Positions 1-31,652 of a DNA stretch of 41,082 nucleotides are shown in pieces. The translations under genes were made by a program, and so were the position numbers. The notes below the pieces were generated by a model that worked only from the letters and a program-made list of their open reading frames with translations, was not told where the DNA came from and made no database searches. Source of the stretch: a virus; IMG/VR virus record IMGVR_UViG_3300042090_000301, positions 1 through 41,082 of that record; one strand, given 5' to 3'. Position 1 is the stretch's first letter. Each line of letters starts with the position of its first letter.

Positions 1-1
1 C

Positions 2-535
2 ACGCTCAAGGGAGTAAATACCGCATCAGGCGGCACGATGAACCTCGCGCAGTGGGACACGTTGTGGATGAACGTCACGTCGGGCACGATCAAGCCGACG
101 GCATTCTACACCACGCAGTCGATCTTCAACTTCTATGGGCAGCTCATCCGCCCGCAGGAGCGCATCACGAAATCCGCCTCGATGATCAAGGGACGGGAGT
201 CGGGAATGCACGGCACGACAGGGTTCGAATCGTTGGATTACAACGGTCGGCCGATCCTCTACGATGAAAAGTCAACGACGGGCATCCTCTGGGCGCTCAA
301 CGAAGACTTCCTCGATTGGTACGCTCTCCCGTATTACAACGCGAAGCCAGTCGCCTATAAGTCGCAGATTGAGGGCAACGATTATGAGGCGCCGATCGGT
401 CTTGGCTTCTCATGGACTGACTGGATCATCCCTGCCAACTCGGCATCGGTGGTCGGTCACATCTATTTCGGCGGCCAGTTCGTCTGCACCAACCCGATTC
501 GTCAGGGTAAATTGACGGGTATCACTGGAATTTAG
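2..535 (+). CDS. Major capsid protein, C-terminal part (5' truncated by window edge)
   Basis: The open frame starts at base 2 and has no start codon inside the window; the first ATG at 38 is internal, since the codons before it (TLKGVNTASGGT) read like capsid sequence. It continues the protein begun at 40600: that part ends in the residues IGGLS and this one starts with TLKG, a spacing typical of HK97-fold major capsid proteins of podovirus-like phages. About 177 residues are present, ending in QGKLTGITGI. The product forms the icosahedral shell. The two parts are not in one frame when joined end to end, so a few bases (3n+2) are missing at the break. The gene is preceded by scaffold and portal genes, as expected. 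Function is inferred from context and family resemblance. Confidence 0.85.
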   Translation, partial: TLKGVNTASGGTMNLAQWDTLWMNVTSGTIKPTAFYTTQSIFNFYGQLIRPQERITKSASMIKGRESGMHGTTGFESLDYNGRPILYDEKSTTGILWALNEDFLDWYALPYYNAKPVAYKSQIEGNDYEAPIGLGFSWTDWIIPANSASVVGHIYFGGQFVCTNPIRQGKLTGITGI

Positions 536-567
536 TCAATTCTAGGTAATTAAACCAAGAAAAAACT

Positions 568-1119
568 ATGTCCAATTTACTCGAATATAATTTTCCCGTG
601 ATCGAATCGGACGGCCTTGTGAGCAACAAGGCCGCGACGATGGGCGGCGCGTGGACGTTCAATGGGGCGGTGACGCTGAATGGTACGACGACCTTTTCGG
701 GTGCGCAGGTGAAGCAGGTGTATGGCTCTTCGGGCAACACCTCTCCTACCGCAGCCCAATCTGGCTCGACGTTCCTGTTTGACACTGCCGCTGGCATCAC
801 GTACACCCTCCCTGCTCCCATCGTGGGCGCAACGTATGACTTCGTCGTCACGACCTCGGTAACGAGTTCGAACCATAAAGTCATCACGAGCGCTGGAACG
901 ATCTATCTGCAGGGCGCGATTACGAGCGCGACGACGACGGCTTCCGTGTTTGAAAGCGTGACTGGGAGCACGAATATCTCGATCACGATGAACGGCACGA
1001 CGACGGGAGGTTTGGTTGGCAGCAACTTCACCTTCAAGTGCCTGAGCGCGACATTGTGGCAGGTATCGGGCACCAACTTCACCTCCGGCACCACGGCCAC
1101 TCCGTTCGCAACCACATAA
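568..1119 (+). CDS. Beta-rich virion protein, possible capsid decoration protein
   Basis: A 183-residue protein directly downstream of the capsid gene. It is rich in Thr, Ser, Gly and Ala with alternating hydrophobic residues, which suggests an all-beta fold. The N-terminal part reads as a short fibre-like repeat (GGAWTFNGAVTLNGTTTF). I do not recognise a named family. Position immediately after the capsid gene fits a head decoration or head-fibre protein. The start ATG follows an A-rich leader (AATTAAACCAAGAAAAAACT) without a Shine-Dalgarno motif, the same style of leader as genes 1148, 17251 and 18500. No cysteines of note, no membrane segment. Confidence 0.65.
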   Translation: MSNLLEYNFPVIESDGLVSNKAATMGGAWTFNGAVTLNGTTTFSGAQVKQVYGSSGNTSPTAAQSGSTFLFDTAAGITYTLPAPIVGATYDFVVTTSVTSSNHKVITSAGTIYLQGAITSATTTASVFESVTGSTNISITMNGTTTGGLVGSNFTFKCLSATLWQVSGTNFTSGTTATPFATT

Positions 1120-1147
1120 AGTCGAAATAAATTAATCAAAAAAATCT

Positions 1148-1909
1148 ATGTCTCACATCACTACTCTCGTGGGTCCGCAGATCGATCCAGGCCAGGATAT
1201 CTTGGTCGATATCGGCGCGAACTCCGTGATCGCTTCCGTTGGGAATCCGACGCAGATGATCGGCACCTACATGGAAACTGCGGACGGCCGTGGCTTCCGT
1301 TACTGCCAGGTCGGTGCAACCGCTTTGGTTCCAGGCAAGCTGTATAGCGGTCCTGCTCAAGACACCACGAACCAGAACCCTTCTGGCGGTTTGGCTGTCG
1401 CTGCGGCTGCTATCGGTGCGACGCAGGTGACTTTGACTGGCTCGCTCACGCTGGCGCTCAACCTGATGGCAGGTGGCTTCCTTTCGGTGAACGTCACGCC
1501 AGGCCAGGGATACACCTACCGCATCAAGGGCAACACCGCAGTAAGCTCGGCCGCGAACTGTGTCGTTACCTTGGATGATCCGTTGGTCATCGCTCTCACG
1601 ACTTCCTCAAAAGTCGTCATGACGAGCAATCCGTATACCAACGTTGTCGTGCAAGCGACGACTGCGGTTTCGATGCCCGTCGGCATTGCGCCGTTTACGA
1701 CGCAAAATACCGATTGGGGTTGGTTACAAACGTATGGTCCGTCCGCGTATCTCAATGATGCTTCAACGACTGTCGGTAAGTCGCTGATGCCTTCAACGAA
1801 TACCGCTGGCGCCATGATGACGGCTACGGCTGGCAACATCGTCACTGCATGGGCGATGAACACGGGTGTCACGACCGAATACGATATGTGCTATTTGGTC
1901 ATTCACTAG
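1148..1909 (+). CDS. Virion structural protein (capsid-associated)
   Basis: A 253-residue protein rich in small and beta-forming residues. The middle and end (residues about 185-253, with WGWLQTYGPSAYL) resemble capsid-associated proteins that follow the major capsid gene in many uncultivated tailed phages; I know no exact role. It lies 28 bases after the preceding structural gene and is followed by a strong GC-rich hairpin at 1921-1949, so it is probably the last member of a highly expressed capsid transcript segment. The start is an ATG behind the leader AATTAATCAAAAAAATCT, with no Shine-Dalgarno motif. Confidence 0.65.
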   Translation: MSHITTLVGPQIDPGQDILVDIGANSVIASVGNPTQMIGTYMETADGRGFRYCQVGATALVPGKLYSGPAQDTTNQNPSGGLAVAAAAIGATQVTLTGSLTLALNLMAGGFLSVNVTPGQGYTYRIKGNTAVSSAANCVVTLDDPLVIALTTSSKVVMTSNPYTNVVVQATTAVSMPVGIAPFTTQNTDWGWLQTYGPSAYLNDASTTVGKSLMPSTNTAGAMMTATAGNIVTAWAMNTGVTTEYDMCYLVIH

Positions 1910-1920
1910 GTTCGATATTC

Positions 1921-1949
1921 CCCTCCCGCGCCTCGAAAACGCGGGAGGG
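1921..1949 (+). terminator. Strong hairpin after the capsid gene block
   Basis: Bases 1921-1930 (CCCTCCCGCG) pair perfectly with 1940-1949 (CGCGGGAGGG) around a 9-base loop. There is no run of T after it, so it may be an RNA-stability or attenuator hairpin that separates abundant capsid mRNA from later genes rather than a classical intrinsic terminator. Confidence 0.55.
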
Positions 1950-2034
1950 TGATGAGAGGGATCAAATTAAAGCGGCACCGATCCCCGCCGCGCGGTGAAC
2001 AAAAATGATGCGGCATCACCACGCATCCAATACC

Positions 2035-2499
2035 ATGAAAATAGTTAAATTCGTCAACGCAACCGATACCGATTTCACAGGCATGTGGAATGGTCAGAAA
2101 AAATTGGTAAAGCCAGGGCAATCGCTCTATATGGCCGATTACCTCGCATTCCATTTCGCCAAGCATCTTACCAACCGCGAGCTTACGAAAGCTGGCCTTC
2201 ACAATTTCACGTCTCCAAAAAAGCCCGAAGAAGTTCCGCAGTTTATGGAACTCTTCAATAAATTCATCGTGCTCGACGAGCATCAGGACGATATGGGAGA
2301 CATGGATATCATGGACGTGAAGCCAGTCTCAAAGCACGTCGAGGAAGATCCTAAGATGGCGGCAAAGCGCGGCGGGGCAACCACGTTGCGCGGCGTAGAT
2401 GATCCCGATTTCGTCGATTCCGACAAGGTAAAGTCCGAAAAAGGCGATGACGAGGATGAGTTCGAAACGAAGGATAAAGTCGAAAAAACCAAAGACTGA
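2035..2499 (+). CDS. Small virion-region protein with acidic tail
   Basis: A 154-residue protein. The N-terminal half (MKIVKFVNATDTDFTGMWNG) looks like a compact domain; the second half is strongly charged, with many Asp, Glu and Lys residues and the end EFETKDKVEKTKD, so it is probably disordered. I chose ATG 2035 because it follows the recurring CC-ATG context; the in-frame ATGs at 2005 and 2008 would add a His-rich extension that looks like leader sequence. It sits between capsid and tail genes and is probably a minor head or head-tail protein. No family recognised. Confidence 0.55.
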   Translation: MKIVKFVNATDTDFTGMWNGQKKLVKPGQSLYMADYLAFHFAKHLTNRELTKAGLHNFTSPKKPEEVPQFMELFNKFIVLDEHQDDMGDMDIMDVKPVSKHVEEDPKMAAKRGGATTLRGVDDPDFVDSDKVKSEKGDDEDEFETKDKVEKTKD

Positions 2500-2508
2500 A
2501 TAAAAACC

Positions 2509-2823
2509 ATGTCACCTATCGATAATGGCCAACGCTTCCACCAGACGGCGGCGATCGCGACAGGGAGTGCGGTTGCAACCGAAACTCCCGCTGCCACGCA
2601 GTCGGTCTATCTGACTGACGTTTCGGGAAGTTCCGATACTGCGGGCGCCACGCTTACCATCAAGGACGGCTCGACGACCATCTGGGAAGAGATCATCGGC
2701 GATACGATGCCCTATGAGCACGCCTTTGCGGTCCCGTTAAAAGGAACGATCGCCACCGCTATGACGGTGACGGTGACGGGTACGACTGCTTGCTTCGCAA
2801 ATTTTGCTGGCGTTCTTCTTTAA
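2509..2823 (+). CDS. Small beta-rich virion protein
   Basis: A 104-residue protein dominated by Thr, Ala and Val. The pattern GATLTIKDGSTTIWEE followed by a second short strand region suggests a single beta-sandwich domain, as in many small phage structural proteins. No enzyme motif, membrane segment or cysteine pair is visible. It lies 9 bases after the preceding gene and 5 bases before the next one, so it is cotranscribed with the structural genes. Exact role unknown. Confidence 0.55.
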   Translation: MSPIDNGQRFHQTAAIATGSAVATETPAATQSVYLTDVSGSSDTAGATLTIKDGSTTIWEEIIGDTMPYEHAFAVPLKGTIATAMTVTVTGTTACFANFAGVLL

Positions 2824-2828
2824 TCTCA

Positions 2829-3554
2829 ATGCTCACTCTTCTCACCCCCCAACAAATAGAAAAAGACAGGAATAGTACTGCTGAAGAAATTCAGCGACGC
2901 GTTTGGGGGCTTGCAGAAGAAGAATCCGACCTCGTTGCTCGCGTGAACACTCTGCGCGATACCGAGCGCAAAGAAAAGGATCGCATCGCTAGGGACTTCG
3001 ATTTCGACGAGAAAAGATTCAACGCCATCGTGGCTGATCTTCAGCTCAAGGTGAATGATTTGGAGAAGCGGCGAGAGCGGGCCATGAAGCCAATCGAAGA
3101 ACTTGAAATCGAAGCCCGACAACGGATTGCAACGGTCGCGATTCGCGAGGAAGCGATCGTGTCGCGTGAAAAAAATCTGAAGGATCAGGAAGACAACTTA
3201 CGGGAAGCGGTGGAAGGTCAAATGGAAACTGCCGAACTTCTCGCTGATCGAGAGGACGCCATTAAAAAGAAAGAGCAGGGCGTTTGGGCAGAAGAAAAGC
3301 GTTTAAAGAAATCGAATGAGGAACTGACGGCAAAGTGGGCAAGCTTCCATGCGGCAGTCTATGAAAAAACCGAAGAGTTGGCAGTCCGCGAATCACAGGT
3401 GCTCATGGATGCAAAGGCAAACGAGATCGTGCGCGAACAGCTGAAATCTCAGGAGCATGATCAGAATGCGCGTGATCTTCAGATCAAAGATCGCTATGCA
3501 ACTCTCGTAAAAGCAACCGAAGAGTTTATGAAAAAACAACAATCACATGGCTAA
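2829..3554 (+). CDS. Long coiled-coil protein
   Basis: A 241-residue, highly charged protein (Glu, Lys, Arg rich) with heptad-like spacing over nearly its whole length, for example residues 15-215. A long rod-like coiled coil is therefore expected. There is no membrane segment or signal peptide. In a structural gene block such proteins can be fibre stalks, rulers or assembly chaperones. It is much shorter than a tape-measure protein and lacks the hydrophobic stretches usual there. ATG 2829 is preferred over the upstream in-frame ATG at 2790, which lies inside the preceding gene. The stop overlaps the next gene by 8 bases. Confidence 0.6.
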   Translation: MLTLLTPQQIEKDRNSTAEEIQRRVWGLAEEESDLVARVNTLRDTERKEKDRIARDFDFDEKRFNAIVADLQLKVNDLEKRRERAMKPIEELEIEARQRIATVAIREEAIVSREKNLKDQEDNLREAVEGQMETAELLADREDAIKKKEQGVWAEEKRLKKSNEELTAKWASFHAAVYEKTEELAVRESQVLMDAKANEIVREQLKSQEHDQNARDLQIKDRYATLVKATEEFMKKQQSHG

Positions 3555-3822
3555 CGCAAAACGAGATGCCAATATGGTTCCCGTGAAGCTCGGAGCTTCA
3601 AACGCCGATGGCGTTACCCCTTTGATGATCCAAGCTAATCCATCTACTCATCAACTTCAGGTGAATAACGGAACGAGCGGATCTGATCAGGGAAAGCCGC
3701 AAGCCGAACGTGACCAAAATATGGTCCCGATCATGATGGCAGTTTCATCGGCAGACGGAAAAACACCCGTAGAACTCTACGTCGATCTTTCGACAAATCT
3801 TCTCTTGGTAAAATCATCTTAA
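3547..3822 (+). CDS. Two-repeat structural protein (RDxNMVP repeat)
   Basis: A 91-residue protein made of two copies of a repeat of about 35 residues. Copy 1 starts at residue 6 and copy 2 at about residue 55. The shared pattern is RDxNMVPxxxxxSxADG, then TP, then a short strand ending in a Pro/Asp-Ser-Thr turn and a hydrophobic end. The next gene carries a third copy. In phages this kind of repeat is found in virion surface proteins; the exact role here is unknown. It overlaps the coiled-coil gene by 8 bases, so translation is probably coupled. Confidence 0.6.
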   Translation: MANAKRDANMVPVKLGASNADGVTPLMIQANPSTHQLQVNNGTSGSDQGKPQAERDQNMVPIMMAVSSADGKTPVELYVDLSTNLLLVKSS

Positions 3823-3826
3823 ATTT

Positions 3827-4201
3827 ATGTCCGATCACGCCTCACGGGATAACAATATGGTGACCACGCTGTTGGCGGTTTCAAACGCCGACGGCATTTC
3901 GCCAGTGCTTCTTTGGGCTGACCCATCAAGTCATCGATTGCTGGTTCAAGTGAGCGGCGTGGGCACGAACTGGTCAAGCGCTGAAACGCCGTCGGGAACC
4001 ATCAATGGCTCTAACGCGACATTCACGTTGGCAAATACCCCGACCGATAATCCCATCATTGTCGTGGGAGGTCAGACGCAAAATAACGGAAATCCCGTCG
4101 GCACGGGCGCCGACTTCATCATGACGACTTCCACGATCACTTTCCAAGCGGGAGCAATCCCGACGAATGGTACGTGGATCTTGGCATGGTATCACTACTA
4201 A
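3827..4201 (+). CDS. Structural protein: RDxNMV repeat plus beta-sandwich domain
   Basis: A 124-residue protein. Residues 7-42 are a third copy of the repeat found twice in the gene just upstream (SRDNNMVTTLLAVSNADG). Residues about 50-124 resemble a small beta-sandwich often seen at the ends of phage fibre and collar proteins: ETPSGTINGSNATFTL, then a loop, then a final TWILAWYHY strand. It therefore looks like an attachment or collar protein built from a shared repeat and a display domain. The stop is 7 bases before the start of the fibre gene. Confidence 0.6.
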   Translation: MSDHASRDNNMVTTLLAVSNADGISPVLLWADPSSHRLLVQVSGVGTNWSSAETPSGTINGSNATFTLANTPTDNPIIVVGGQTQNNGNPVGTGADFIMTTSTITFQAGAIPTNGTWILAWYHY

Positions 4202-4208
4202 AAAAACC

Positions 4209-6605
4209 ATGAATATATTAAATAAAATTAAAAAGAATATTTCGGGCATACTCGTGGGAGCCGCCATCCTTGGTGCTGCCCTCATGGTTTCTTCGGTAGC
4301 GAGCGCGACTGTTTTCCCTTCCCAGCAAGTTGGGGCAAATCCCGTGAATGGTTATTATCTCCAAACCAACGGTGCGACCTCAACGTGGGCACCCGTTTCC
4401 GGTGGTTCGGGTTCTGGCACAGTCTTTCTTCTTACTGCGGGAAACAATCTCATTTCTCTTTCTCCGGCCTCAATAACTGCATCAGGCACAATCTCGGTCA
4501 ACACTTCGACCCTGGCGACGTTCGTAGGAACTCTTGGGTATATTTCATCTTCTACAGGAAATACTCTTTATCTCCAAATTGCTAACAATTTATCAGACCT
4601 TTCTTCAACTTCTTCCGCGCGGACAAACATCGGATATTCTGGCGGCCTAAAAATAACTATTTCATCGACTGGGACAATCGGATTAACGACGTCTTCCATC
4701 TCCCAATTCAATAACGATTCGGGCTATACGACGAATACTGGCACAGTAAATTCTTTAACCCAAGGAAATGGTATCACGCTCACGCCAAGCACTATTACAA
4801 CCACGGGAGTAATCCAGCTTAATACTTCAACGGTCAATGCATTAATTACGGCTTTTGGATATATCACATCAGCACCAGGGACTTCCACTCTTACGGCTGG
4901 TGGAGGCACGGCAACCGGCCCCGCAATAACCCTGGCAACTTCGACGAGCGCGGGAACGTTTAATATTGTGTGCGGTGTTTCAACCTGTACGATCACAATT
5001 CCACCTAAGAATGACCAATTCTACGCACCATCGACGACGATTCCAACCGTGTATGTCACTTCATTCGGTGGGATGTCCGGCATCGTAACGACCAACGCTT
5101 CGACAGGAATTGCAATCACGAATAGCGGCGGCGTTCACTCGATTCAGAACGTAGGCGTGACGTCGTTGAACGGAGCAACCGGCACCCTCACATATTCGGT
5201 TACGACGAGCGGCGCGGGGATCACGTCCACCGTGGCGACTGCGGGAGGCAATTCGACGACGACGATCACGAACACCGGCGTCACCTCATTCACCGGCCAG
5301 GGCTGCGTCACTGCGGCGAACTCCACTGGCACCGTGAACTTGAGCGTCACCTGCATATCGGGGAACCAGAACATCACATTCACCATCAACGGCGACGCCA
5401 CGGGCACCGCAAGCGGGGCCACCTCGATCACGGACACCGTGACCGTCACGGGATTGAACGGTAAGGCATTGCCGGCGAATACGACCGGCACGCTCCAATA
5501 CTCGCAGGGAGCCTGGGCGATCAACCTGGCGACCAGCTCCCTCGGGCTTTATGACGTAAACGGAAAACTGTCAAGCTATGGCGGCTCGACTTATAACCCG
5601 TCGCCGAACTGCGTGACGGGCGTGACAGTTTCACCCACCGGAACTGTCACGGGCACGAGTTCGAGCTGCGGCGGAGCTGGCGGCGGCGGTCTCGCATCGA
5701 CGACTCCATTTACCGTGGGCAATCTGGCCATCGTCTCATCCTCGGGCGCGATCGCAACTTACGGTGGCAACTCTTGCGCCTCGGGCGTCCAGACGGGCAT
5801 ATCGGCATCCGGCACCGCGCTCTGCCAATCCACTTCGACGCTTGGTCTTGGTTCGGGTGGAACAGTCGTAACATCTTCGGCGGTTAGTACGGGTTATTAT
5901 CCGTTCTGGGTTTCTAGTAACGGCCTTAGCGGAACGTCAACCGAAGAATCGGTGAGCATGGCGGGGACAGGAACGGGAACCTCAACGGCCTTCTTAGGGA
6001 ATGTGTCGGTAGGCAGTTCCACGGTAGTAACCTCAACGGCAACCTTTTCCGATAACGGTTCATCTTCATTCAATGCAGTCATCAACAGTCCTTACAATGT
6101 CACGGGGACGCCCCATTTACAATTCGGGAACGGGAATGACGCAAACGATTGGGGGTTCGGCTTCGCGGGAAACCGTGCGATGGTCGGCTATACGACTCAG
6201 GATCTATTCGGTAACGAAGCTCTTGTTTTGAACGCCGGAAGCTCGAAAGGAATCGACTTTTACACGGCAGGGACCAACGCGCAGTTCCAGAGCGGAAACC
6301 TTGTCATGTCATTGGACACGAACGGTCACATGGATTTCGGAACGTCGTCTGTCACTGCGGTTGGAGGTACGGTGGTAGGAAACCCGATCAACGGAAAATT
6401 CACCAACACCGTTGCATCGACCTCTTACGGAATTACGTTCGCAAATGCTTTCATCTACCCGCCGGGCTGTATCGTGACGATAAACTCCGGCACGGCGGTT
6501 CTTATGAGCTGCAATACGAAAACGACCAACGCAACATTCACGGTTGGTTCGGCACTTCCTACAGGTACGATATTTAGCTATTGGTTCTTTGGTGCTTCAA
6601 ACTAA
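4209..6605 (+). CDS. Large fibre-like protein with a Sec signal peptide
   Basis: A 798-residue protein. Residues 1-33 form a clear signal peptide: Lys-rich start, hydrophobic core LVGAAILGAALMV, and cleavage motif ASA at 31-33. The mature part is dominated by Thr, Ser, Gly and short beta repeats typical of trimeric phage tail fibres, including a YLQIANNLSDL segment near residue 120 that is common in tail-fibre repeats. The C-terminal 150 residues look like a globular tip or chaperone-type end domain. A signal peptide is unexpected for a virion fibre assembled in the cytoplasm, so it may be displayed on the host surface or used from outside. ATG 4209 is chosen because it starts the signal peptide and follows the A-rich leader; ATG 4167 would spoil it. 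The gene is rich in CCGG, unlike the rest of the genome. Confidence 0.7.
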   Translation: MNILNKIKKNISGILVGAAILGAALMVSSVASATVFPSQQVGANPVNGYYLQTNGATSTWAPVSGGSGSGTVFLLTAGNNLISLSPASITASGTISVNTSTLATFVGTLGYISSSTGNTLYLQIANNLSDLSSTSSARTNIGYSGGLKITISSTGTIGLTTSSISQFNNDSGYTTNTGTVNSLTQGNGITLTPSTITTTGVIQLNTSTVNALITAFGYITSAPGTSTLTAGGGTATGPAITLATSTSAGTFNIVCGVSTCTITIPPKNDQFYAPSTTIPTVYVTSFGGMSGIVTTNASTGIAITNSGGVHSIQNVGVTSLNGATGTLTYSVTTSGAGITSTVATAGGNSTTTITNTGVTSFTGQGCVTAANSTGTVNLSVTCISGNQNITFTINGDATGTASGATSITDTVTVTGLNGKALPANTTGTLQYSQGAWAINLATSSLGLYDVNGKLSSYGGSTYNPSPNCVTGVTVSPTGTVTGTSSSCGGAGGGGLASTTPFTVGNLAIVSSSGAIATYGGNSCASGVQTGISASGTALCQSTSTLGLGSGGTVVTSSAVSTGYYPFWVSSNGLSGTSTEESVSMAGTGTGTSTAFLGNVSVGSSTVVTSTATFSDNGSSSFNAVINSPYNVTGTPHLQFGNGNDANDWGFGFAGNRAMVGYTTQDLFGNEALVLNAGSSKGIDFYTAGTNAQFQSGNLVMSLDTNGHMDFGTSSVTAVGGTVVGNPINGKFTNTVASTSYGITFANAFIYPPGCIVTINSGTAVLMSCNTKTTNATFTVGSALPTGTIFSYWFFGASN

Positions 6606-6606
6606 C

Positions 6607-7518
6607 ATGAAAAAAACAATCCTATTTCTTCTCGGCATCTCAATCGCGTCAGTGGCCTTTGCGCGGGGACATCACACTCCGAAACCGGCACCGATCCCTG
6701 CTCCAACCGCTGCGAGCGGCTTCTGCATCAACTACGGAGAGTATACTCAGTCTTACGACCTCTCAGCCAACGGTCAGGTTGCACAAGACCTCGCGACGCT
6801 CAAGGCCGCGAACATCACCTGCCTTCGGCTTGCGTATTACACCTTCAATTTCGCGCCCTCCGAATCCTTGGCCTTGTTCGCGCAGTCAAAGGGCTTCTCC
6901 GTCATTCTCGGCGGCGGCTGGTGGGCGAACGGGTCAAGCGTGATCTCGCCCTCAAATCTCGCTACCTACACCTCGGAGGTCATGCAGCAGGCGGCGTGGG
7001 CGCAGGCCAATGGAATCCCCCAGATGAGCCTCGGTAACGAGCAGGAATATTACCTGAACGGAATCACCGATTCACAGTGGGCGTCCTACATCACGGGACT
7101 GGCCGCGCAGGTCAAAACGGTCTATTCGGGAAAGGTCAGCTATGAAACGTCAGGGGATTTCGCGGACGAATGGGCGACGCAGAGCCTTGGAAGCCTAGAT
7201 CTCTTAGGCGTGAATCTCTACTGCGGTTATCAGTGCAACCTGAACTACGCCACGGAATTGATAAACCATTTCGGCGCGAGCCATGTCTACATCTCGGAAA
7301 CGAACTGCGATATGACGAACGTTGCCTCATGCTCCAATGATGCGAGCCACGCAGCGGAAGTCGAGGGCGACGCGGTGCAGCTTTTGAAGCTCGGAATCCC
7401 TGAATACTATTTTGCCTATAGTGGCGGCTCAGCGGACGGCGTTCCTACTTATTGGGGGCTATTCAATGGGACGAATCTACAGCAACCATTAACGGCAGCG
7501 GTACTAGGCATTAAATAA
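6607..7518 (+). CDS. Secreted clan GH-A glycoside hydrolase-like enzyme
   Basis: A 303-residue protein that begins with a signal peptide (residues 1-19, cleavage after AFA), followed by a Pro-rich linker. The rest reads as a TIM-barrel glycosidase of clan GH-A. The acid/base motif Asn-Glu is at N144-E145 (SLGNEQEYY) and the nucleophile-like Glu is E231 (YISETNC), the spacing expected for strands 4 and 7. Cys210, Cys234 and Cys242 could form disulfides, in keeping with export. The substrate is unknown; host surface polysaccharide is plausible. It starts one base after the fibre gene stop, so the two exported proteins are likely made together. ATG 6607 gives the signal peptide. Confidence 0.75.
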   Translation: MKKTILFLLGISIASVAFARGHHTPKPAPIPAPTAASGFCINYGEYTQSYDLSANGQVAQDLATLKAANITCLRLAYYTFNFAPSESLALFAQSKGFSVILGGGWWANGSSVISPSNLATYTSEVMQQAAWAQANGIPQMSLGNEQEYYLNGITDSQWASYITGLAAQVKTVYSGKVSYETSGDFADEWATQSLGSLDLLGVNLYCGYQCNLNYATELINHFGASHVYISETNCDMTNVASCSNDASHAAEVEGDAVQLLKLGIPEYYFAYSGGSADGVPTYWGLFNGTNLQQPLTAAVLGIK

Positions 7519-7556
7519 TATGTACGGATTCTCCGGCTACTTAGTGCAATAAGAAC

Positions 7557-7859
7557 ATGATTCAACTCACTCCCACCAACATCCTCTTCGGTATCGTCGT
7601 TTTGCAGGCGATCTTTGCGACCTACAGTTATTTCAAAACCCCGCAGATTAAAGGCGACCAAGCAAAGATCCGGCTTGAAGACAAAGTGGCCGATCTCGAG
7701 AAGCAGATCTTGGAAATCAAGCAGACGCACCTCATCAGCATTGAAAACAATATCAAAGATCTCTCGGCGACCGTGCACGATCTCCAGATCACGATTGTGA
7801 AATTGAACACTATATTGGACGAGCGGCTTCCGAAACAACAAAACGTCGCATCACAATAA
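7557..7859 (+). CDS. Membrane-anchored coiled-coil protein
   Basis: A 100-residue protein with one N-terminal membrane segment (residues about 9-25, ILFGIVVLQAIFATYSYF) followed by a coiled coil from about residue 36 to 92. The shape resembles phage XhlA-like or spanin-like lysis accessory proteins, with the helix tail in the cytoplasm or periplasm depending on topology. It is far from the lysis cassette at 17-19 kb, so a different membrane role is equally possible. The DNA carries CCGG sites like its neighbours at 4.4-8.1 kb. Confidence 0.5.
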   Translation: MIQLTPTNILFGIVVLQAIFATYSYFKTPQIKGDQAKIRLEDKVADLEKQILEIKQTHLISIENNIKDLSATVHDLQITIVKLNTILDERLPKQQNVASQ

Positions 7860-7867
7860 TAAAAACC

Positions 7868-8122
7868 ATGGCACAATATCTTCCAAAACTTCGCGTGAAA
7901 TCGGGAGAGGAGATCGGCAACGAGCTGTTCTTCGGCTTCCCTGATTTGCAGGAAGAATATCGCACCTATCTCGCGGCCGACACGGCGGTGGGAGTCACCG
8001 ACCTGCTCTCGAACGGCGTGGACTTTGCGAACGGCCAGTACGTGGTGATCGGGCAACCGGGCAACATCGGGACCGAGATCGTTCAGCTGACCGGCACGCC
8101 GGGCGCGGCCACGATGCCATGA
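7868..8122 (+). CDS. Short virion-type protein
   Basis: An 84-residue protein that resembles the N-terminal domain of longer phage virion proteins; the segment FANGQYVVIGQPGNIGTEIV (residues about 53-72) is a pattern I associate with neck or baseplate-adjacent proteins. Here the protein stops at residue 84, so it may be a shortened version that keeps only this domain. The stop overlaps the start of a 25-residue membrane peptide gene in an ATGA arrangement. It contains three CCGG sites, consistent with the foreign-looking 4.4-8.1 kb patch. Confidence 0.5.
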   Translation: MAQYLPKLRVKSGEEIGNELFFGFPDLQEEYRTYLAADTAVGVTDLLSNGVDFANGQYVVIGQPGNIGTEIVQLTGTPGAATMP

Positions 8123-10800: not shown

Positions 10801-11382
10801 ATGTTCATCAAAGGAAAATCACCCTGGAATAAGGGAAAAAATAAATATCAAAATCTTACTTGTCAAGAGTGTGGCGATGTTTTCGATTCTATCTCCCGAA
10901 ATTCAACTCAAAGATTTTGTAGTCATTCTTGCTCTGGGAAAGCTATAAAAAATAGAGGTCAATTTGCAGTGGGTAGCGTCCCGTGGAATAAAAATAAACA
11001 GGGGCTTGTCCCAGCATGGAACAAAGGGATGATAGGTTTTCGCGCGGGAGAAAAACGGGATCCTAAAATCTATACTCACATGATTGGAAATAAATACGCC
11101 TATCGAGGGGTGGGTAGAAAAGATGAGCGCAACGATCCCGCTTATCAATCATGGTCGCGAGGCGTGAAAGTGCGCGATAACTGGACGTGCCAATTCAAAA
11201 ACGAAAAATGCTTTGGTCACATGGTTGCTCACCATATTCTTTCATGGAAAGATCATCCCGAAGAACGCTATAACCTCAACAATGGCATCACTCTTTGCGA
11301 ATTTCATCACCCGCGTCGTCGTGCGGATGAAAAAACTCTCGCTCCAGTTTTCCAAAAGCTGGTCAGCATAAAACACCAATAA
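10801..11382 (+). CDS. NUMOD3-type HNH homing endonuclease
   Basis: A 193-residue protein. Residues 4-13 and 72-80 carry NUMOD3-like DNA-binding motifs (SPWNKGK, PAWNKGM). Residues 21-44 form a zinc finger with C21, C24, C40 and C44. The HNH catalytic part is C-terminal: H144-H145 (AHHI), N160-N161 and C166-H169 (LCEFHH). Such enzymes cut one or both strands of related genomes and spread by repair. It lies between tail and neck genes, and the neck gene starts two bases after its stop with a TTG. The base composition is more AT-rich than the flanks, which fits a mobile gene. It has its own promoter six bases upstream of the ATG. Confidence 0.85.
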   Translation: MFIKGKSPWNKGKNKYQNLTCQECGDVFDSISRNSTQRFCSHSCSGKAIKNRGQFAVGSVPWNKNKQGLVPAWNKGMIGFRAGEKRDPKIYTHMIGNKYAYRGVGRKDERNDPAYQSWSRGVKVRDNWTCQFKNEKCFGHMVAHHILSWKDHPEERYNLNNGITLCEFHHPRRRADEKTLAPVFQKLVSIKHQ

Positions 11383-11383
11383 T

Positions 11384-12307
11384 TTGAGATCATACTCATC
11401 GGGTCTTGCGGCAGCCACGCGCTGGACCAAAACACAATCAGGTTCCTCCCAAGACCAAGCCGACCTCGCGGGCTATGCGAATGATATTTATAAGAAAATC
11501 TGCTCAGCGAAAAGCTGGCCATTTCTTGAAGGGCAAGCCGTCGCCTTGACGATCGCCTCGACGCAGTTCGTGCAGCTTCCGAATACGATCTGGCAAAACA
11601 AGGTGAAAGAAATCTCCGTCGTGCCAGTCGGCTCAAACATCCGCTATACGCCAAAACTTTCCCCTTCGCAGGAACACTGGGATCAGCTGAACCTCACTAC
11701 GTTTGTCTCGGATATCCCCGAGTGGTATTACGTCTTCGCTGGCCAGATCGGACTCTGGCCGACTCCCGCATCGTCGAATAGCACGATCACGATCACGGGC
11801 GGTCTCCGTCCGATCGATCTTTCTATAGCTGATTATACGACTGGCCAAATCGTCTCGGTTGCGAATGGCGGCACGGCGGTTGTGGGAACGGGAACGTCGT
11901 GGACGGCCAATATGGCGAACCTGCTCTCGCTTTCCATCACGAACGGCACGGCCGCGAACTCTGGCGACGGGAACTGGTATCCTGTCGCTTCCGTGGGAAG
12001 CTCGACATCCCTTACTCTTCTCAATCCTTACACTGGGCTTTCGATCTCTTCCGCCACGACGAATTATATCCTCGGCCAGTTGCCGCTTCTTCCCGAAGCG
12101 TTCCAAGACATGCCGTGGAAGTGGGCGGCCGCGCAATACTGGATCAAGGAAGAAGACGAGCGTGCGAAACCATTCGCCGATTTATATAACACCGATCTCG
12201 TCATGCTGGTGCAGCAATTCAGTAGTGCAACAGACGCTGGGTACGTGATAGATAATGGGCAAGATCAGCAGATTTTGAATCCTAACCTCGTTATACATTT
12301 AGGATAA
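11384..12307 (+). CDS. Head-tail neck/adaptor protein
   Basis: A 307-residue protein that matches the general layout of podovirus neck (adaptor) proteins. The N-terminal helical part contains DLAGYANDIYKKICSAKSWP, then a strand region, then DIPEWYYVFAGQIGLWPTP (residues about 110-129), which is a conserved pattern of these proteins. Residues about 150-225 look like an inserted beta domain. The C-terminal part is helical. It connects the portal to the tail. The start is TTG at 11384, two bases after the HNH stop; no ATG is available before residue about 190. The HNH gene probably separated this gene from its original leader. Another HNH gene follows. Confidence 0.65.
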   Translation: MRSYSSGLAAATRWTKTQSGSSQDQADLAGYANDIYKKICSAKSWPFLEGQAVALTIASTQFVQLPNTIWQNKVKEISVVPVGSNIRYTPKLSPSQEHWDQLNLTTFVSDIPEWYYVFAGQIGLWPTPASSNSTITITGGLRPIDLSIADYTTGQIVSVANGGTAVVGTGTSWTANMANLLSLSITNGTAANSGDGNWYPVASVGSSTSLTLLNPYTGLSISSATTNYILGQLPLLPEAFQDMPWKWAAAQYWIKEEDERAKPFADLYNTDLVMLVQQFSSATDAGYVIDNGQDQQILNPNLVIHLG

Positions 12308-12326: not shown

Positions 12327-12971
12327 ATGAGCACAAAAGGAATAAAACAATCACCAGAACATATTCGCGCACGAGTGAAGGCTCGTCAGCGAAATGGTAC
12401 TTACAAACATTCCGCGGAAACGCGAGCACGAATTTCTGCTATTCAAATTGGACGAAAGGTATCCGCTGAAACTAAGCATCGCCATTCCGTGGCCATGAAA
12501 GCAGCCTATGAGAACGATCCTAGCCTACGCAAAAAACGAAGCGAACAACAATTAAAATCCCATACTTTTTCTAGTAAGGGAAAGCGTTGGAATTGGAATG
12601 ATGAAAGTAAGGCGCGCGGTCGGATTGCGCAAGCAGGCAAAAATAATCCTATGTTTGGTCGTCGAGGAATTTTATGCCCCGCTTTTCGCAATGCCGATGT
12701 AGATGAAAAAACAAAAGCTCGCCAAACACTAGAATATCGCCAATGGCGTAGAGCAGTTTTTGAACGAGATGATTTCAGATGTCTCGATTGCGGAGCGAAA
12801 AGCGGAGAAACGGGAAGGCATGTAGAATTGGAGGCAGATCACATTTATCCTTTTGCTTACTTCCCAAGATTACGATATCAACTTGAGAATGGTCGGACAT
12901 TGTGCGCGGAGTGTCATCGCAAAACTTCAACTTTTGCAGGTCGAGCAAAAACTTTAACCTTCATAAACTAA
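12327..12971 (+). CDS. NUMOD3-type HNH homing endonuclease
   Basis: A 214-residue protein. Several short helical NUMOD3-like repeats (SPEHIRARVKAR, SAETRARISA, SAETKHRHSV) cover residues 8-60 and are likely DNA-binding. The catalytic HNH part is at residues 150-200: a Cys pair (CLDCG), then LEADHIYPFAYFP with the metal-binding His, then Asn (LENGRTLC) and CAECH. The downstream gene starts one base after its stop. Like the HNH gene at 10801 it flanks the neck gene, so both may target that conserved sequence in competing phages. It has an extended -10 promoter six bases before the ATG and is AT-richer than neighbours. Confidence 0.85.
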   Translation: MSTKGIKQSPEHIRARVKARQRNGTYKHSAETRARISAIQIGRKVSAETKHRHSVAMKAAYENDPSLRKKRSEQQLKSHTFSSKGKRWNWNDESKARGRIAQAGKNNPMFGRRGILCPAFRNADVDEKTKARQTLEYRQWRRAVFERDDFRCLDCGAKSGETGRHVELEADHIYPFAYFPRLRYQLENGRTLCAECHRKTSTFAGRAKTLTFIN

Positions 12972-17250: not shown

Positions 17251-18477
17251 ATGGTAGAAATAATTTGTCAAGATGGCCATGTCATGAATGGCGAAGTATG
17301 CGATCGCTGCGGCAAAGGTCCGCAAGTTGATCCTATGGCGGCAATCGGCGCGGATCCGAAGCCTATGGCCGCGCCCAAACCGCAGCCAGAGGAAAACGGC
17401 GTCTCAAGCGATGCCAATTTTTGGGAGGGTGATAATTTCAAGCCAGGCGCCATCCAAGATGAGCCTGACGATCGGGATTATGAGTATTCGGAAATAGCGG
17501 GTGCGTCGGCGCCCTTCGATTGGACGGCTGGGTACGATATCGAAAAACAGCTGGGCTTCGCGCTCACGCCGAATAACCAGAATGGCTCTGGCAGCTGCGG
17601 CGGCCAAGCGTTCTCAAAGTATGATGCGGTGCAGCGGACGCTTATTGAAAAAGCGCCCTTTATCGAGCGCAGCGCAAAGTACCTTTATTCGCAGGTGTTC
17701 GCTCCCGCCGGCGGGTCGGGTGGCCGCGCCATCGGCGGCATCCTGACGTCGCAGGGCTGCGCCCGCGAGCAGTTCTGCCCGAGCTACGATAACGGGCAAC
17801 CGCCAAGCGAGGCGTTTATGGAGCAGGTTCAGGATATAACCCCCCAAGCCCGGCAAGACGCGCCGAATGCCCAATCGCGCTCCTATGCCACAGTGGCAAT
17901 TGATATCGATTCCATCGCGCAGGCGATCCGCGATAACTACGGCGTCGTTCTCGGCCTATATGGCTCGAATAACGGCACGTGGGGTTCGGCATTCCCGACT
18001 CCTCCTGTCGCCACCGATACGAAATGGTCGCACTGGATGTATTTCGGAAAGGCATCAATCCAAAACAATAACAAAGCCGTCGCTGGTCTCCAGTCGTGGG
18101 GCGTTGGCATCGGCCAAAACGGATGGCAGTGGCTGACCGAAGCCTATGTGAATGCCGCAGTCTGGGGCGCATGGACGCTCGTATTCAATCCGACGCCGAC
18201 ACCCGACACGTTCTCTCATACTTTCGAAGTCGATCTCAATTTCGGAGAAAATGACGGCGAAGTGATCCAGCTTCAAACTGCGCTCGCAATTGACGGCGAA
18301 TTCCCCTCGAGCGTGCCGACCTCTGGCCTGTACGGCAAGATCACGGCGGCCGCAGTCCTCGCGTTCCAAAAGAAATATGACATCGCTCCATCCGAGGAAC
18401 TGTTGGCGCTTCAAGGAAAAACGGTCGGCCCAGAAACCAGGGCGAAGCTCAACGAATTGTTCGGTGCAAAGTCTTAA
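17251..18477 (+). CDS. Papain-like cysteine peptidase fused to peptidoglycan-binding domain (endolysin candidate)
   Basis: A 408-residue protein. Residues 6-20 carry a small Cys/His cluster (C6, H10, C17, C20) that may bind zinc. Residues about 85-310 form a papain-like (C1A) domain: oxyanion Gln at Q110, nucleophile C116 in GSGSCGGQAF (the Gln-Cys spacing of six matches papain), His H261 in WSHWM, and Q281-SWG where papain has Asn-SWG. The Asn to Gln change is odd but the triad may still work. Residues 336-405 match a PG_binding_1 domain with LQTALAIDGEFP and VGPETRAKLNELF. It is followed by a holin candidate and a lysozyme-like gene. The probable role is cleavage of cell-wall peptides or surface proteins at lysis. 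No signal peptide. Confidence 0.75.
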   Translation: MVEIICQDGHVMNGEVCDRCGKGPQVDPMAAIGADPKPMAAPKPQPEENGVSSDANFWEGDNFKPGAIQDEPDDRDYEYSEIAGASAPFDWTAGYDIEKQLGFALTPNNQNGSGSCGGQAFSKYDAVQRTLIEKAPFIERSAKYLYSQVFAPAGGSGGRAIGGILTSQGCAREQFCPSYDNGQPPSEAFMEQVQDITPQARQDAPNAQSRSYATVAIDIDSIAQAIRDNYGVVLGLYGSNNGTWGSAFPTPPVATDTKWSHWMYFGKASIQNNNKAVAGLQSWGVGIGQNGWQWLTEAYVNAAVWGAWTLVFNPTPTPDTFSHTFEVDLNFGENDGEVIQLQTALAIDGEFPSSVPTSGLYGKITAAAVLAFQKKYDIAPSEELLALQGKTVGPETRAKLNELFGAKS

Positions 18478-20060: not shown

Positions 20061-20777
20061 ATGCCCAAAGAAACAGAAAATGAAATGGACGCGCTCGAGA
20101 AGCAGAAGGGCAAGCTGATGCTCGTGACGAATTCACCGATCACGACGCAGCAGGTCCTGAAGATCTTCCAGCGCACACCGAAACAGCATGTCCACACTCG
20201 GCCAGCCAAAGGCGGCGGAACGTGGGACTATGTGACCGCGACCTACGTCAAAAAAGTGCTCAACTTCGTATTCGGCTTCCTGTGGAGCTTTGAAATCATG
20301 AGTGAGCGCGAGATTGGAAAACAGGTCGTCGTGCGAGGACGCCTCACGATCCTCGACCCGAAGACGCGCGAGCCGATGCTCGTAAAAGAACAGTATGGCC
20401 GCGCAGACATTAAAACACTCAAGGCGGGCGGCAACCTCGATATCGGAAACGATTATAAGGCCGCCGCATCCGACGCGCTCAAAAAGTGCGCCGCAGAATT
20501 GGGCGTCGCCTCCGACATCTATGGCAAGCAGGAGTTCCGCGACATCGGCATCGATATCGGCGGATCGCCTGACGCGCCGAAGAACGAGGCCGTCGGCATC
20601 CAACCCCAGACTGACCAGATCATGAAGCTCCTCCGCGCGATGAAAGTAACGCCCGAGAAGGACTTCGCAGCAATCAAAAAGGTCGCTAAAATAGAACTCA
20701 AGGATTGGCGTATGACGGAAGCCCAAGCTAAGCATGTCCTCGCCTCACTCCTCGCATACAAAAATGGAAAAAAGTAA
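20061..20777 (+). CDS. Rad52/Rad22-like single-strand annealing protein
   Basis: A 238-residue protein. The part from about residue 38 to 155 has the features of Rad52-type phage annealing proteins (Sak family): WDYVTATYVKKVLNFVFGFL with an aromatic pair, then the VVVRGRLTI strand, and the conserved NDYKAAASDALKKCAAELG helix (residues about 132-150). The C-terminal 60 residues look like a small helical domain. Such proteins anneal single strands during phage recombination, normally paired with an exonuclease, and the next gene supplies one. It overlaps that gene by 14 bases. Confidence 0.75.
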   Translation: MPKETENEMDALEKQKGKLMLVTNSPITTQQVLKIFQRTPKQHVHTRPAKGGGTWDYVTATYVKKVLNFVFGFLWSFEIMSEREIGKQVVVRGRLTILDPKTREPMLVKEQYGRADIKTLKAGGNLDIGNDYKAAASDALKKCAAELGVASDIYGKQEFRDIGIDIGGSPDAPKNEAVGIQPQTDQIMKLLRAMKVTPEKDFAAIKKVAKIELKDWRMTEAQAKHVLASLLAYKNGKK

Positions 20778-21495
20778 CGACACCATCAAGAGCAAGCCAT
20801 ATCCCGATGTGACGCTTGAATTCAATATCCCAAAGCACTTCTTCCTCGCGAATGGCGACCGCGTTGACTCCGTAACGCGCTATACGGGCGTCGTCGACAA
20901 AAGCCGCGCCCTGATGAGCTGGCAGGAAAAGCTCTCGCGCGAGGAACTCCTCAAACGATTCCGCGAAAATGGCATCCTCTCCGAGAAAGATGTGATCGAA
21001 GCGACGTCGCTCCATCGGGTCCGCAAGGAACAGGCCGCATCGCTTGGCACGATGGCGCACGATTGGTGTGAACACTATGCCTTGGGCGAGAAGCAGGATC
21101 TGCCCACCGATCCGAACGTGAAGAATGCGGTGCTCGCATTCCTGCAATGGATTGAAGCCGAGAAATTCAAGATCATGATGCCCGAAAAGCACACGTACTC
21201 GAAAAAATATAAGTACGCTGGCATAGCCGACGCGGTGGCGAAGCGAAACAAAAAGCTCGCCCTCATCGACTACAAAACTTCGAAAGGTATCTATGACGAG
21301 TTTCGATTCCAAACGGCCGCCTATCAGAATAACCTGATGGAGATGGGCATTGACATCGAAGAGCGGTGGATCGTGCAGTTCGATAAAGAAACTGGCGACT
21401 TCCATCCCCATCTCCTCGATGACTTCAAAAAAGATTTCGCAGCGTTCCTTGGATGTCGAGCCATCGTGCTGCGCCAGAACGAACTAAAAACATAG
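20764..21495 (+). CDS. RecB/Cas4-type PD-(D/E)XK exonuclease
   Basis: A 243-residue protein. Motifs of the RecB-like nuclease family are in order: GTMAH with H99, a GIAD motif with D156, DYKT with D169 and K171, and the QxxxY motif Q183-T-A-A-Y187. E141 may be an additional metal ligand. The enzyme probably resects double-stranded ends to give single strands for the annealing protein in the preceding gene. ATG 20764 overlaps that gene's end and matches the coupling style here; ATG 20734 is less likely because it lies deep in the previous gene. Confidence 0.8.
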   Translation: MEKSNDTIKSKPYPDVTLEFNIPKHFFLANGDRVDSVTRYTGVVDKSRALMSWQEKLSREELLKRFRENGILSEKDVIEATSLHRVRKEQAASLGTMAHDWCEHYALGEKQDLPTDPNVKNAVLAFLQWIEAEKFKIMMPEKHTYSKKYKYAGIADAVAKRNKKLALIDYKTSKGIYDEFRFQTAAYQNNLMEMGIDIEERWIVQFDKETGDFHPHLLDDFKKDFAAFLGCRAIVLRQNELKT

Positions 21496-24662: not shown

Positions 24663-24961
24663 AAAATCTCACCGCAGAAGTCCATGATTTTTTGAAAGCC
24701 GATCCGCGCTTCCGCGAGCGCGAAAAGAAAAATCGCGGCATCGGATATCTTCTCTCGCAACGATATCCATTCCTGCGAAACATTGACCTTGGCATCTTGG
24801 CGGCCGTGATCGAAGATGCTGGCGCAATGGATCGTTATTGGCGTAAAATTCTTCATGAGTATCCCGAACTTCGAGGGTCGGATTATAACGACAAGGCCGC
24901 GCTCGAGGAGATCAAGCAGATGGAACTCGGCTACGGCCAGCAGCCATTAATAGAAAAATGA
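24659..24961 (+). CDS. Small helical protein of unknown function
   Basis: A 100-residue, mostly helical and charged protein. The core FREREKKNRGIGYLLSQRYP and a later WRKILHEYPELRG suggest a small DNA- or protein-binding domain. No family is recognised by me. It overlaps both neighbours by 4 bases, placing it between the initiator-like protein and the Holliday-junction-resolvase-like nuclease. Confidence 0.6.
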   Translation: MKNLTAEVHDFLKADPRFREREKKNRGIGYLLSQRYPFLRNIDLGILAAVIEDAGAMDRYWRKILHEYPELRGSDYNDKAALEEIKQMELGYGQQPLIEK

Positions 24962-25428
24962 AACCATCCTCCGCAAAAGCTAAAGGAAAACTTCTCGAAG
25001 ACTATGTCGCGGATCAAATCATCGCGCATGGCCTCGACAGCCGCGCACGGCGCGATGGCGCGAGTGGCGCTGGCAACCGCGAGAAGGGAGATATTATGAC
25101 CTCTATGCAAATCTTAGGGCAGAACGCGGGCATCGAATGTAAAAATCAAGCCTCGCTCGCGATCCCTGAATGGTGGCGCCAAACAAAGAAGCTCGAGATC
25201 CTCCAGCGCGAACCCGTTCTCGCATTCAAGCAGTACGGCGAAGGCCTCGACGAAACGAAAGTCGTGATCTACCTCGAGACCCTCCTGCAACTTGTCGCAC
25301 GCGCGAATACAGCCGAGGGAATCACCGCGCAGCCGACTGATAACACCGAAAGCAACCGAAAATTGAAATGGGCGCTCGCCGATTTACGAAATTCCGCTAG
25401 CAAAGTTATGCACTTATTAGAAAATTGA
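24958..25428 (+). CDS. Holliday-junction-resolvase-like PD-(D/E)XK nuclease
   Basis: A 156-residue protein with a nuclease core of the Hjc/PD-(D/E)XK type: E14 in KLLEDYVADQ, basic LDSRARRDGASG, D45 in REKGDI, and E60-x-K62 in GIECKNQ, followed by a helix with Trp and Gln and a later strand VVIYLE. Such enzymes cut branched DNA made during recombination and before packaging. The gene lies at the end of the DNA-metabolism block and its end overlaps the promoter at 25425. Confidence 0.7.
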   Translation: MKPSSAKAKGKLLEDYVADQIIAHGLDSRARRDGASGAGNREKGDIMTSMQILGQNAGIECKNQASLAIPEWWRQTKKLEILQREPVLAFKQYGEGLDETKVVIYLETLLQLVARANTAEGITAQPTDNTESNRKLKWALADLRNSASKVMHLLEN

Positions 25429-28834: not shown

Positions 28835-29075
28835 TTGCCGCTATGGGTTGCCGCATGACACCATGATCCTCGGCGAAGATGCGAGCGTGAAGGTGGAACG
28901 ATGTAAGCTCTGCCGCAAAGTGTTCCGCTGGAAGAAATTCAACGGCCGCGTCAACAACGTCGAATATCTCAAAGTCCATGCCCGCAATTTCGCGCAGCAT
29001 GACGGCCGAACCAAGCAAATCTATATGCGCCTTTACCGTCGTGATGAATGTAAAATCACTTTATCTCCCCGATGA
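28824..29075 (+). CDS. Small zinc-finger-like protein
   Basis: An 83-residue protein. C27-x-x-C30 (CKLC) and H52/H59 (EYLKVHARNFAQHD) give a possible zinc site. The basic middle (RKVFRWKKFNGR) suggests nucleic-acid binding. Start ATG 28824 overlaps the acidic-protein gene by 11 bases; the earlier in-frame ATGs belong to shadow sequence of that gene. It overlaps the HNH gene by 4 bases. Confidence 0.5.
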   Translation: MRYDCRYGLPHDTMILGEDASVKVERCKLCRKVFRWKKFNGRVNNVEYLKVHARNFAQHDGRTKQIYMRLYRRDECKITLSPR

Positions 29076-29479
29076 CTGGATATTGGACTGGTAAAAAACT
29101 ATCTCCACAGCATCGCAAAAAGCTGGTTGAAAATCATCGCGGGCGTACAGGCCAACCTCATACCGAAGCCACCAAAAAGAAACTTGCCGCTATTCATCTA
29201 GGAAAGCCAAAGCTCTCGATTCGGGGAGTGAATCATCCTAATTGGAAAGGGGGAATCACTCCTAGTCAATTGCAAGCTAGACATTCTCTTGAATACAAGA
29301 CATGGCGCAGAAATGTGTTTGAGAGAGATAAATATATTTGTCAACAATGCGGTAAGCCAGGACGTCGAATTGAAGCTCATCACATCCGCCCCTTCGCCAT
29401 CTTCCCCGAATTACGCTATGAGGTTAATAACGGCCTGACGTTATGCAAAGAGTGCCATAAAAAAATTCCTAAACCATGA
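29072..29479 (+). CDS. NUMOD3-type HNH homing endonuclease
   Basis: A 135-residue protein. NUMOD3-like repeats are at residues 5-20 (TGKKLSPQHRKKLVENH) and 25-48, and the HNH core is at 85-130: CQQCGKPGRR, IEAHHIRPFAIFPELR, NNGLTLCKECHKK. It resembles the longer endonuclease at 12327. It sits between the GroES-containing set and GroEL and overlaps both neighbours by 4 bases, so it is translated within a coupled chain rather than from its own promoter. It is probably a mobile insertion that keeps the operon intact. Confidence 0.85.
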   Translation: MTGYWTGKKLSPQHRKKLVENHRGRTGQPHTEATKKKLAAIHLGKPKLSIRGVNHPNWKGGITPSQLQARHSLEYKTWRRNVFERDKYICQQCGKPGRRIEAHHIRPFAIFPELRYEVNNGLTLCKECHKKIPKP

Positions 29480-31006: not shown

Positions 31007-31348
31007 ATGAAAGATAAGCACGCTCGCGATTCAATCGTAAAACTTGCTCGCATCCTCGGCATATCAGCTACTATCGATTATGACGGCAGCCTCGGAATCG
31101 ATAAATGGTCAAATCTCGATGGTGCCGATCCAGAAAAGCGTCCGATGACCCGCGCAGAAGTGAAAGAGAAATGGAAGAATCATATCGAGAAGATGCAGCA
31201 ATGGGTCGATGACAAGGAGAAGGAAATTTCGGAATTGAGATCATTGATCTTCATGTTGGCGGGGCACATGGATCTCGAATTGTTTGAGGGAAAGGAATTT
31301 AGGCCGAAACAAAAAATAAAAGCAAAAAAATCTCATGTCAGAAACTAA
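31007..31348 (+). CDS. Small coiled-coil/helical protein of unknown function
   Basis: A 113-residue, charged and mostly helical protein. Residues 48-85 (RAEVKEKWKNHIEKMQQWVDDKEKEISEL) look like a coiled coil. The C-terminus is Lys-rich. It starts one base after the GroEL stop and overlaps the next gene (a KH-domain protein) by 14 bases. No known family; perhaps a partner of GroEL or of the RNA-binding protein. Confidence 0.55.
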   Translation: MKDKHARDSIVKLARILGISATIDYDGSLGIDKWSNLDGADPEKRPMTRAEVKEKWKNHIEKMQQWVDDKEKEISELRSLIFMLAGHMDLELFEGKEFRPKQKIKAKKSHVRN

Positions 31349-31652
31349 CGATCAACCATGGTGGATTAAAATGACCGACGAGGAATACCTCACGTCGCTG
31401 GTCCAGCCTCTCTGCGACTATCCGATCTCAACCGACCGCAAAGTCGATGAGATGGGCGTGCTGCTCTCGCTGCGCGTTGACCTGCGGGATATGGGCAAAG
31501 TCGTAGGCCGTGAAGGCGCGACGGCGAAGTGCATCCGCCATCTTCTCCGCAATTTCGGCGCCCCGCGCAATGCCCGCATCAATTTGAGGATCGAGGAACC
31601 CGAGGGCAGCACGCATGTCCGTAAAGATAAAAACCAAAACGATGAAGGTTAA
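31335..31652 (+). CDS. KhpA-like KH-domain RNA-binding protein
   Basis: A 105-residue protein whose residues about 28-92 match the small bacterial KH-domain proteins (KhpA, YlqC type): the GxxG motif is GREG in DMGKVVGREGATAKCIRHLL, followed by NFGAPRNARINLRIEEPEG. KhpA-type proteins bind RNA broadly and act in small-RNA or cell-division regulation. A phage copy is unusual. It could act on host or phage RNAs, for example the tmRNA or the small RNA at 37034, which is inference. It overlaps its upstream neighbour by 14 bases. Confidence 0.7.
   Translation: MSETNDQPWWIKMTDEEYLTSLVQPLCDYPISTDRKVDEMGVLLSLRVDLRDMGKVVGREGATAKCIRHLLRNFGAPRNARINLRIEEPEGSTHVRKDKNQNDEG

Follow-up and report, generated by a model that had tools for sequence, protein, structure and literature searches.

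CCGG avoidance in a phage genome of probable Patescibacteria hosts ends at the borders of a fibre/glycosidase cassette

Avoidance of Type II restriction sites is documented in prokaryotic genomes (PMC4687349), and for prokaryotic viruses it has been linked to the orthodox Type II systems of their hosts (Rusinov et al. 2018, PMC6286503). Haloviruses of the HF1 group lack both GATC and CTAG, which was read as the result of strong purifying selection (PMC7230728). Here, we analyzed a stretch of 41,082 bases (the window; IMG/VR virus record IMGVR_UViG_3300042090_000301, positions 1 to 41,082), in which the palindrome CCGG is nearly absent from the backbone and occurs at its neutral frequency in one fibre/glycosidase cassette at approximately 4202-8122. 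As in the viruses of PMC6286503, a 4-base palindrome was almost completely lost from a phage genome by synonymous choice; unlike in those viruses, the avoidance ends at the borders of a single cassette, and the host is known only as a probable phylum. The HF1 group is similar in that palindromes are absent genome-wide across a group. However, avoidance extends to nearly the whole HF1 group, whereas in the present phage family it comes and goes among close relatives, and the avoided word is CCGG in some and GATC in others. The kind of phenomenon is known, and what is new is the regional exception together with the on/off pattern in a Patescibacteria-linked phage family.

Exact counting gave 28 CCGG sites in the window, 20 of which lie in a patch at 4399-8102, while the remaining 37.4 kb hold 8 (at 1085, 17708, 17850, 25807, 30304, 31763, 33419, and 34919). 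No site was present between 8103 and 17707, and the counts made by eye in a preliminary description of this DNA (about 20, about eight, and none from 8.1 to 17.7 kb) were thus reproduced. Maximal-order Markov expectations, which that description had proposed as a check, were 133.4 outside the patch (8 seen, ratio 0.06) and 22.4 inside (20 seen). Among the tetramers with adequate expectation, CCGG was the most depleted one outside the patch. A synonymous-codon shuffle that preserved proteins and codon usage (400 shuffles) led to the same picture, as 7 genic sites outside the patch compare with 130.8 ± 8.6 expected (z −14.3, shuffle minimum 98), while 19 sites inside compare with 19.9 expected. 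The patch sits at the neutral CCGG expectation and lacks the avoidance seen elsewhere; the depletion that had been proposed for the remaining genome was confirmed, while the proposed enrichment of the patch was not. Furthermore, a scan statistic was applied, and the 20 of 28 sites located within one 3.9-kb stretch exceed the maximum of 12 reached in 5000 uniform placements. GGCC is mildly low outside the patch as well (0.71), which is similar in many Patescibacteria stretches and could speak for chance or a general codon or dinucleotide bias, but this explanation is ruled out by the Markov, codon-shuffle, and scan nulls and has a negligible probability.

Outside the patch, the avoidance can be followed into individual codon choices. 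Proline was encoded by CCG in only 2 of 183 cases before a codon starting with G compared to 167 of 366 elsewhere, alanine by GCC in 3 of 93 cases before glycine compared to 267 of 993 elsewhere, and all 21 prolines before glycine used CCA or CCT. Codon choice shifts only where CCGG would form, and the avoidance is therefore made by synonymous choice, as the preliminary description had suspected. A mutational decay, in which host-methylated CCGG is lost through deamination without any restriction, would predict more inner C-to-T products, and GCT before glycine is indeed enriched (58% vs 22% of non-GCC alanine codons). However, the complementary product is not raised, as CCA for proline before G reaches 32% compared to 42% elsewhere, CCAG is found at 0.90 and CCGA at 1.67 of expectation, and a decay to zero sites across 18-kb contigs is hard to achieve by mutation alone. 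Since only one of the two complementary products is raised, deamination was rejected as the sole cause, and we regard it as extremely improbable.

Every flank context of CCGG is depleted outside the patch, with GCCGGC being the least affected (5 of 18 expected, compared to 3 of approximately 112 for the rest). The residual sites are mostly of this type (5 of 8, at 17708, 25807, 30304, 33419, and 34919; 14% expected, p 0.002 post hoc), and the sole CCGG of the relative G300 (position 19211) is likewise GCCGGC. GCCGGC may thus be a poor target for cutting, or it may be protected.

The same avoidance was found in relatives from the same sample. The contig L017/L055, approximately 95% identical to the window at the DNA level, contains 1 CCGG compared to 58 expected, and L003, with a 63% identical version of the large structural protein at 37157-39181 (portal by position only), contains none compared to 24 expected. 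In the first set of relatives fetched from other samples, the ratios were mostly near 1. Within the part shared by the window and L055, four CCGG sites are present in one contig only and none in both, and at each of the four positions a single-base change separates the site from the word in the other contig. A substitution model fitted to that alignment predicts 24 such one-sided differences, and with this ratio CCGG ranks 2 of 256 words, only one word being lower. The low number of one-sided sites and the lack of shared ones indicate that the selection is recent and that new sites were removed until recently.

For a wider comparison, a scan with a profile of the terminase large subunit (34075-35808), on which the family tree is also based, gave 80 contigs, 69 of them with enough sequence for CCGG ratios. 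The ratio was below 0.2 in 14 of these 69 relatives, in none between 0.2 and 0.4, and above that in the rest. On the terminase (TerL) tree the trait changed at least 8 times, compared to a mean of 12.8 and a minimum of 10 after label shuffling; CCGG avoidance is thus partly inherited and often switched. In the 37.7-kb relative G300, 1 site compares with 115 expected, its fibre region being no exception, and not a single CCGG is present in the fibre genes of the avoiders G300, L104, L110, and L125, which makes the island in the window exceptional for an avoider. A general exemption of the fibre locus was rejected, since the avoidance extends to the fibre genes in avoiding relatives. Such an all-or-none pattern in 69 relatives could be used to predict the restriction system that a given phage encounters, and it allows asking whether a switch of restriction regime is accompanied by one in the adsorption genes.

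Other members of the family avoid GATC instead (0 of 59, 0 of 68, and 3 of 55), and none of the GATC-avoiding relatives provided a convincing second example of an island. In the partial avoiders L096, L099, L088, and L081 (GATC) and L084 (CTAG), the remaining sites are unusually even in spacing (p 0.003-0.011 in each case when compared with randomly placed sites), which could point to enzymes needing two nearby sites; two of these contigs, L096 and L099, have near-identical TerL proteins. In the related phages L106, L107, and L108, about seven palindromes are low together (CATG, CTAG, GATC, GGCC, GTAC, TCGA, and TGCA). The idea that non-avoiders methylate instead of avoiding was rejected, with C5-methyltransferase matches in 7 of 49 records, of which those compared are only 22-32% identical to the HpaII-type methyltransferase of the Patescibacteria genome L025, and with a C5-methyltransferase match in the avoider G300 as well.

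A nuclease encoded by the phage itself, cutting CCGG in host or rival DNA and thereby forcing the phage's own avoidance, would also account for a depleted backbone, and genes of the HNH or PD-(D/E)XK type are indeed located at 10801-11382, 12327-12971, 29072-29479, 20734-21495, and 24958-25428. However, related genes are also found in G008, a record that does not avoid CCGG, and an island of 20 sites would not be tolerated under this scenario either. Among the genes of the window, none except a KH-domain protein (31335-31652) was noticeably more common in avoiders (9 of 16 compared to 7 of 57 others, ignoring kinship and without correction for approximately 60 tests). We therefore consider a phage-encoded nuclease very unlikely.

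The block that escapes the avoidance is placed at approximately 4202-8122, with presumed borders set at gene ends, and comprises all 20 clustered sites; all genes used in this study lie on the + strand. The last backbone gene in front of it (3827-4201) is short and corresponds to the conserved N-terminal part that starts long fibre proteins in relatives, with tblastn matches to the fibres of L008, L010, L011, L104, L110, and L125. It is followed by a fibre-like repetitive protein (4209-6605) with an N-terminal signal peptide recognized by eye, which had no family match and resembles the fibre genes of relatives only weakly, through low-complexity sequence. The next gene (6607-7518) encodes a predicted secreted glycosidase-like protein, again with a signal peptide by eye, whose low-confidence TIM-barrel model (mean pLDDT 52) finds its best structural matches in GH113 mannanases; among 287 Patescibacteria genomes, 4 gave weak matches to this protein. 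With apparent signal peptides in both, these two proteins may be exported rather than being virion fibres. A small protein (7557-7859) with a hydrophobic N-terminus and a subsequent coiled-coil-like part, both by eye, had no family match, and an ORF of 84 amino acids at the right edge (7868-8122), for which no relatives were found, may be what is left of a gene truncated at the junction.

Phage mosaicism arises via the exchange of receptor-binding (fibre) modules. The present locus resembles such cases, as a variable block comes after a conserved gene of the fibre N-terminal type, while the rest of the genome is syntenic. At the equivalent position, G008, L008, L010, L011, and L103 have other genes or, at most, distant versions of these. 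The 26% identical relative of the glycosidase that G008 holds there, and the fibre-like gene of L122 at this locus, again with a signal peptide by eye, indicate that the block is a normal kind of adsorption-region cassette in this phage family. Unlike in usual fibre-module mosaicism, what sets the block apart is its unpurged restriction words and not its base composition. No compositional oddity of the cassette was found when sought (codon distance 0.199, with 8 of 58 backbone blocks equally far or farther), while the avoided word changes sharply at its gene borders. An avoided restriction word can thus expose a transplanted module where codon usage would give no sign of it.

The main rival explanation is a chimeric contig, in which the fibre locus would stem from a non-avoiding relative in the sample and would have been fused to this backbone during assembly, while the backbone avoidance stays real. 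The contig comes from a metagenome in which relatives are also present, fibre loci vary, and the only near-identical contig stops at approximately window position 2079. Nevertheless, the cassette is located at the expected variable fibre locus, in the correct orientation and with gene starts and ends in order, its codon usage lies within the range of the backbone, and natural swapping of the fibre locus is seen among relatives. A chimera thus appears unlikely, albeit worth keeping in mind.

With regards to the host, a portal-profile scan of genome contigs, with the protein at 37157-39181 as the query, found three relatives in metagenome-assembled genomes (MAGs) assigned to Parcubacteria, Patescibacteria, and Ignavibacteriae, so that two of the three fall within Patescibacteria. 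The name of the Ignavibacteriae MAG points to a 0.1-µm filter fraction, in which very small cells would be expected. The host of the phage is thus probably a member of the Patescibacteria; as binning errors are possible, the phylum is a strong lead and not a proof. Restriction-modification has been reported as a main defence of Patescibacteria (PMC12455944). The preliminary description had also suggested looking for CCGG-specific restriction-modification genes in candidate hosts, and a full-length HpaII-family nuclease (PF09561) scored above the cut-off in 4 of 287 Patescibacteria genomes (L025-L028), in each case adjoined by a C5-methyltransferase ORF. The four methyltransferases are 63-68% identical to each other. 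The HpaII system combines exactly such a nuclease and C5-methyltransferase and recognizes CCGG, so that the palindrome matches and the genes occur in the probable host phylum. The window contains no HpaII-type gene, and the HpaII-bearing genomes have no direct link to this phage. A search for MspI-family nucleases in Patescibacteria gave no match and was uninformative, as the control remained silent too. The stretches with the nuclease/methyltransferase pair hold few CCGG sites in L026, L027, and L028 (2, 0, and 0 in approximately 4 kb), and in L025 the pair follows a comM-like reading frame (Mg-chelatase-type, by eye).

We consider it likely that the backbone was shaped by CCGG-directed Type II restriction and that the cassette was recently acquired from a non-avoiding source. 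Repeated infection of CCGG-restricting, probably Patescibacteria, hosts would have purged CCGG from the backbone, with an enzyme of the HpaII kind as the presumable selective agent: incoming unmethylated genomes richer in CCGG would be cut more often, and synonymous variants without the word would win. Later, the cassette would have recombined in from a source without this selection, its sites being still unpurged; both the direction and the recency of this transfer are inferred. Both ideas had been put forward in the preliminary description. Selection against a CCGG-targeting system is now backed by the codon shuffle, the sister comparison, the all-or-none recurrence, and the HpaII-family genes in the probable host phylum, and the acquisition by the finding that the exempt block is a fibre-locus cassette, with other genes at this locus in relatives and CCGG-free fibre genes in avoiders.

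Several points weigh against this interpretation. With 20 CCGG sites, the phage should be open to restriction in such a host, and thus either the present host differs or the contig may be chimeric. For the host there is a lead at the level of the phylum and for its enzyme a candidate family, and the near-identical sister contig ends before the cassette locus. No donor was found, as the fibre, the glycosidase, and the 84-amino-acid ORF had no match in viral contigs, nor did the fibre and the glycosidase when searched in phages. Finally, the four HpaII-bearing genomes show CCGG ratios of 0.73-0.98, similar to the controls and without clear depletion, and a depleted host genome as a host marker was thus not seen. 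Such ratios fit mobile, young systems, but they are also the weakest link of the restriction-and-acquisition interpretation.

A phage with 20 sites would now have to meet little CCGG restriction, which could be due to new hosts reached via the cassette, the loss of the system by the host, or travel in a methylated state. The current host presumably does not possess the enzyme or has lost it, possibly through a cassette-driven host change, and a change between restriction regimes is plausible. More specifically, a lineage purged of CCGG in restricting Patescibacteria might have taken up the adsorption cassette from a relative that does not avoid the word and have reached, with it, hosts lacking the restriction system, although we put forward this host jump only tentatively, with somewhat more doubt than confidence. 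If true, the unpurged word would mark the swap, and CCGG avoidance would be an on/off trait tracking such moves. Patescibacteria are largely uncultured, and the pattern gives a strong signature, open to checking, of restriction pressure on their probable phages.

With regards to the genome map, the window ends lie approximately 15 bases apart within the head-protein gene of L055, which runs on across both ends, and the window is thus an almost complete, circularly permuted map. The left backbone (1-4201) carries structural genes in an order common to relatives, including the C-terminal part of the head protein (38-535), and 1 CCGG (1085). The right backbone (8123-41082) contains the other 7 sites. 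The genes used comprise those for head, tail, and lysis proteins, a Rad52-like protein, an exonuclease, a single-stranded DNA-binding protein, a GroEL-type chaperonin, the terminase, and the portal-position protein, the last of which had no match in the family search. The chaperonin gene (29476-31005), contained in a phage of 41 kb, is common to many relatives. Three of the nuclease genes are HNH endonuclease genes, possibly homing (10801-11382, 12327-12971, and 29072-29479), and two of them flank a tail-fibre-like gene (11384-12307). A lysis-type protein with a C-terminal peptidoglycan-binding domain and, by eye, a papain-like N-terminal part is encoded at 17251-18477, and its gene holds two of the residual CCGG sites, 142 bases apart.

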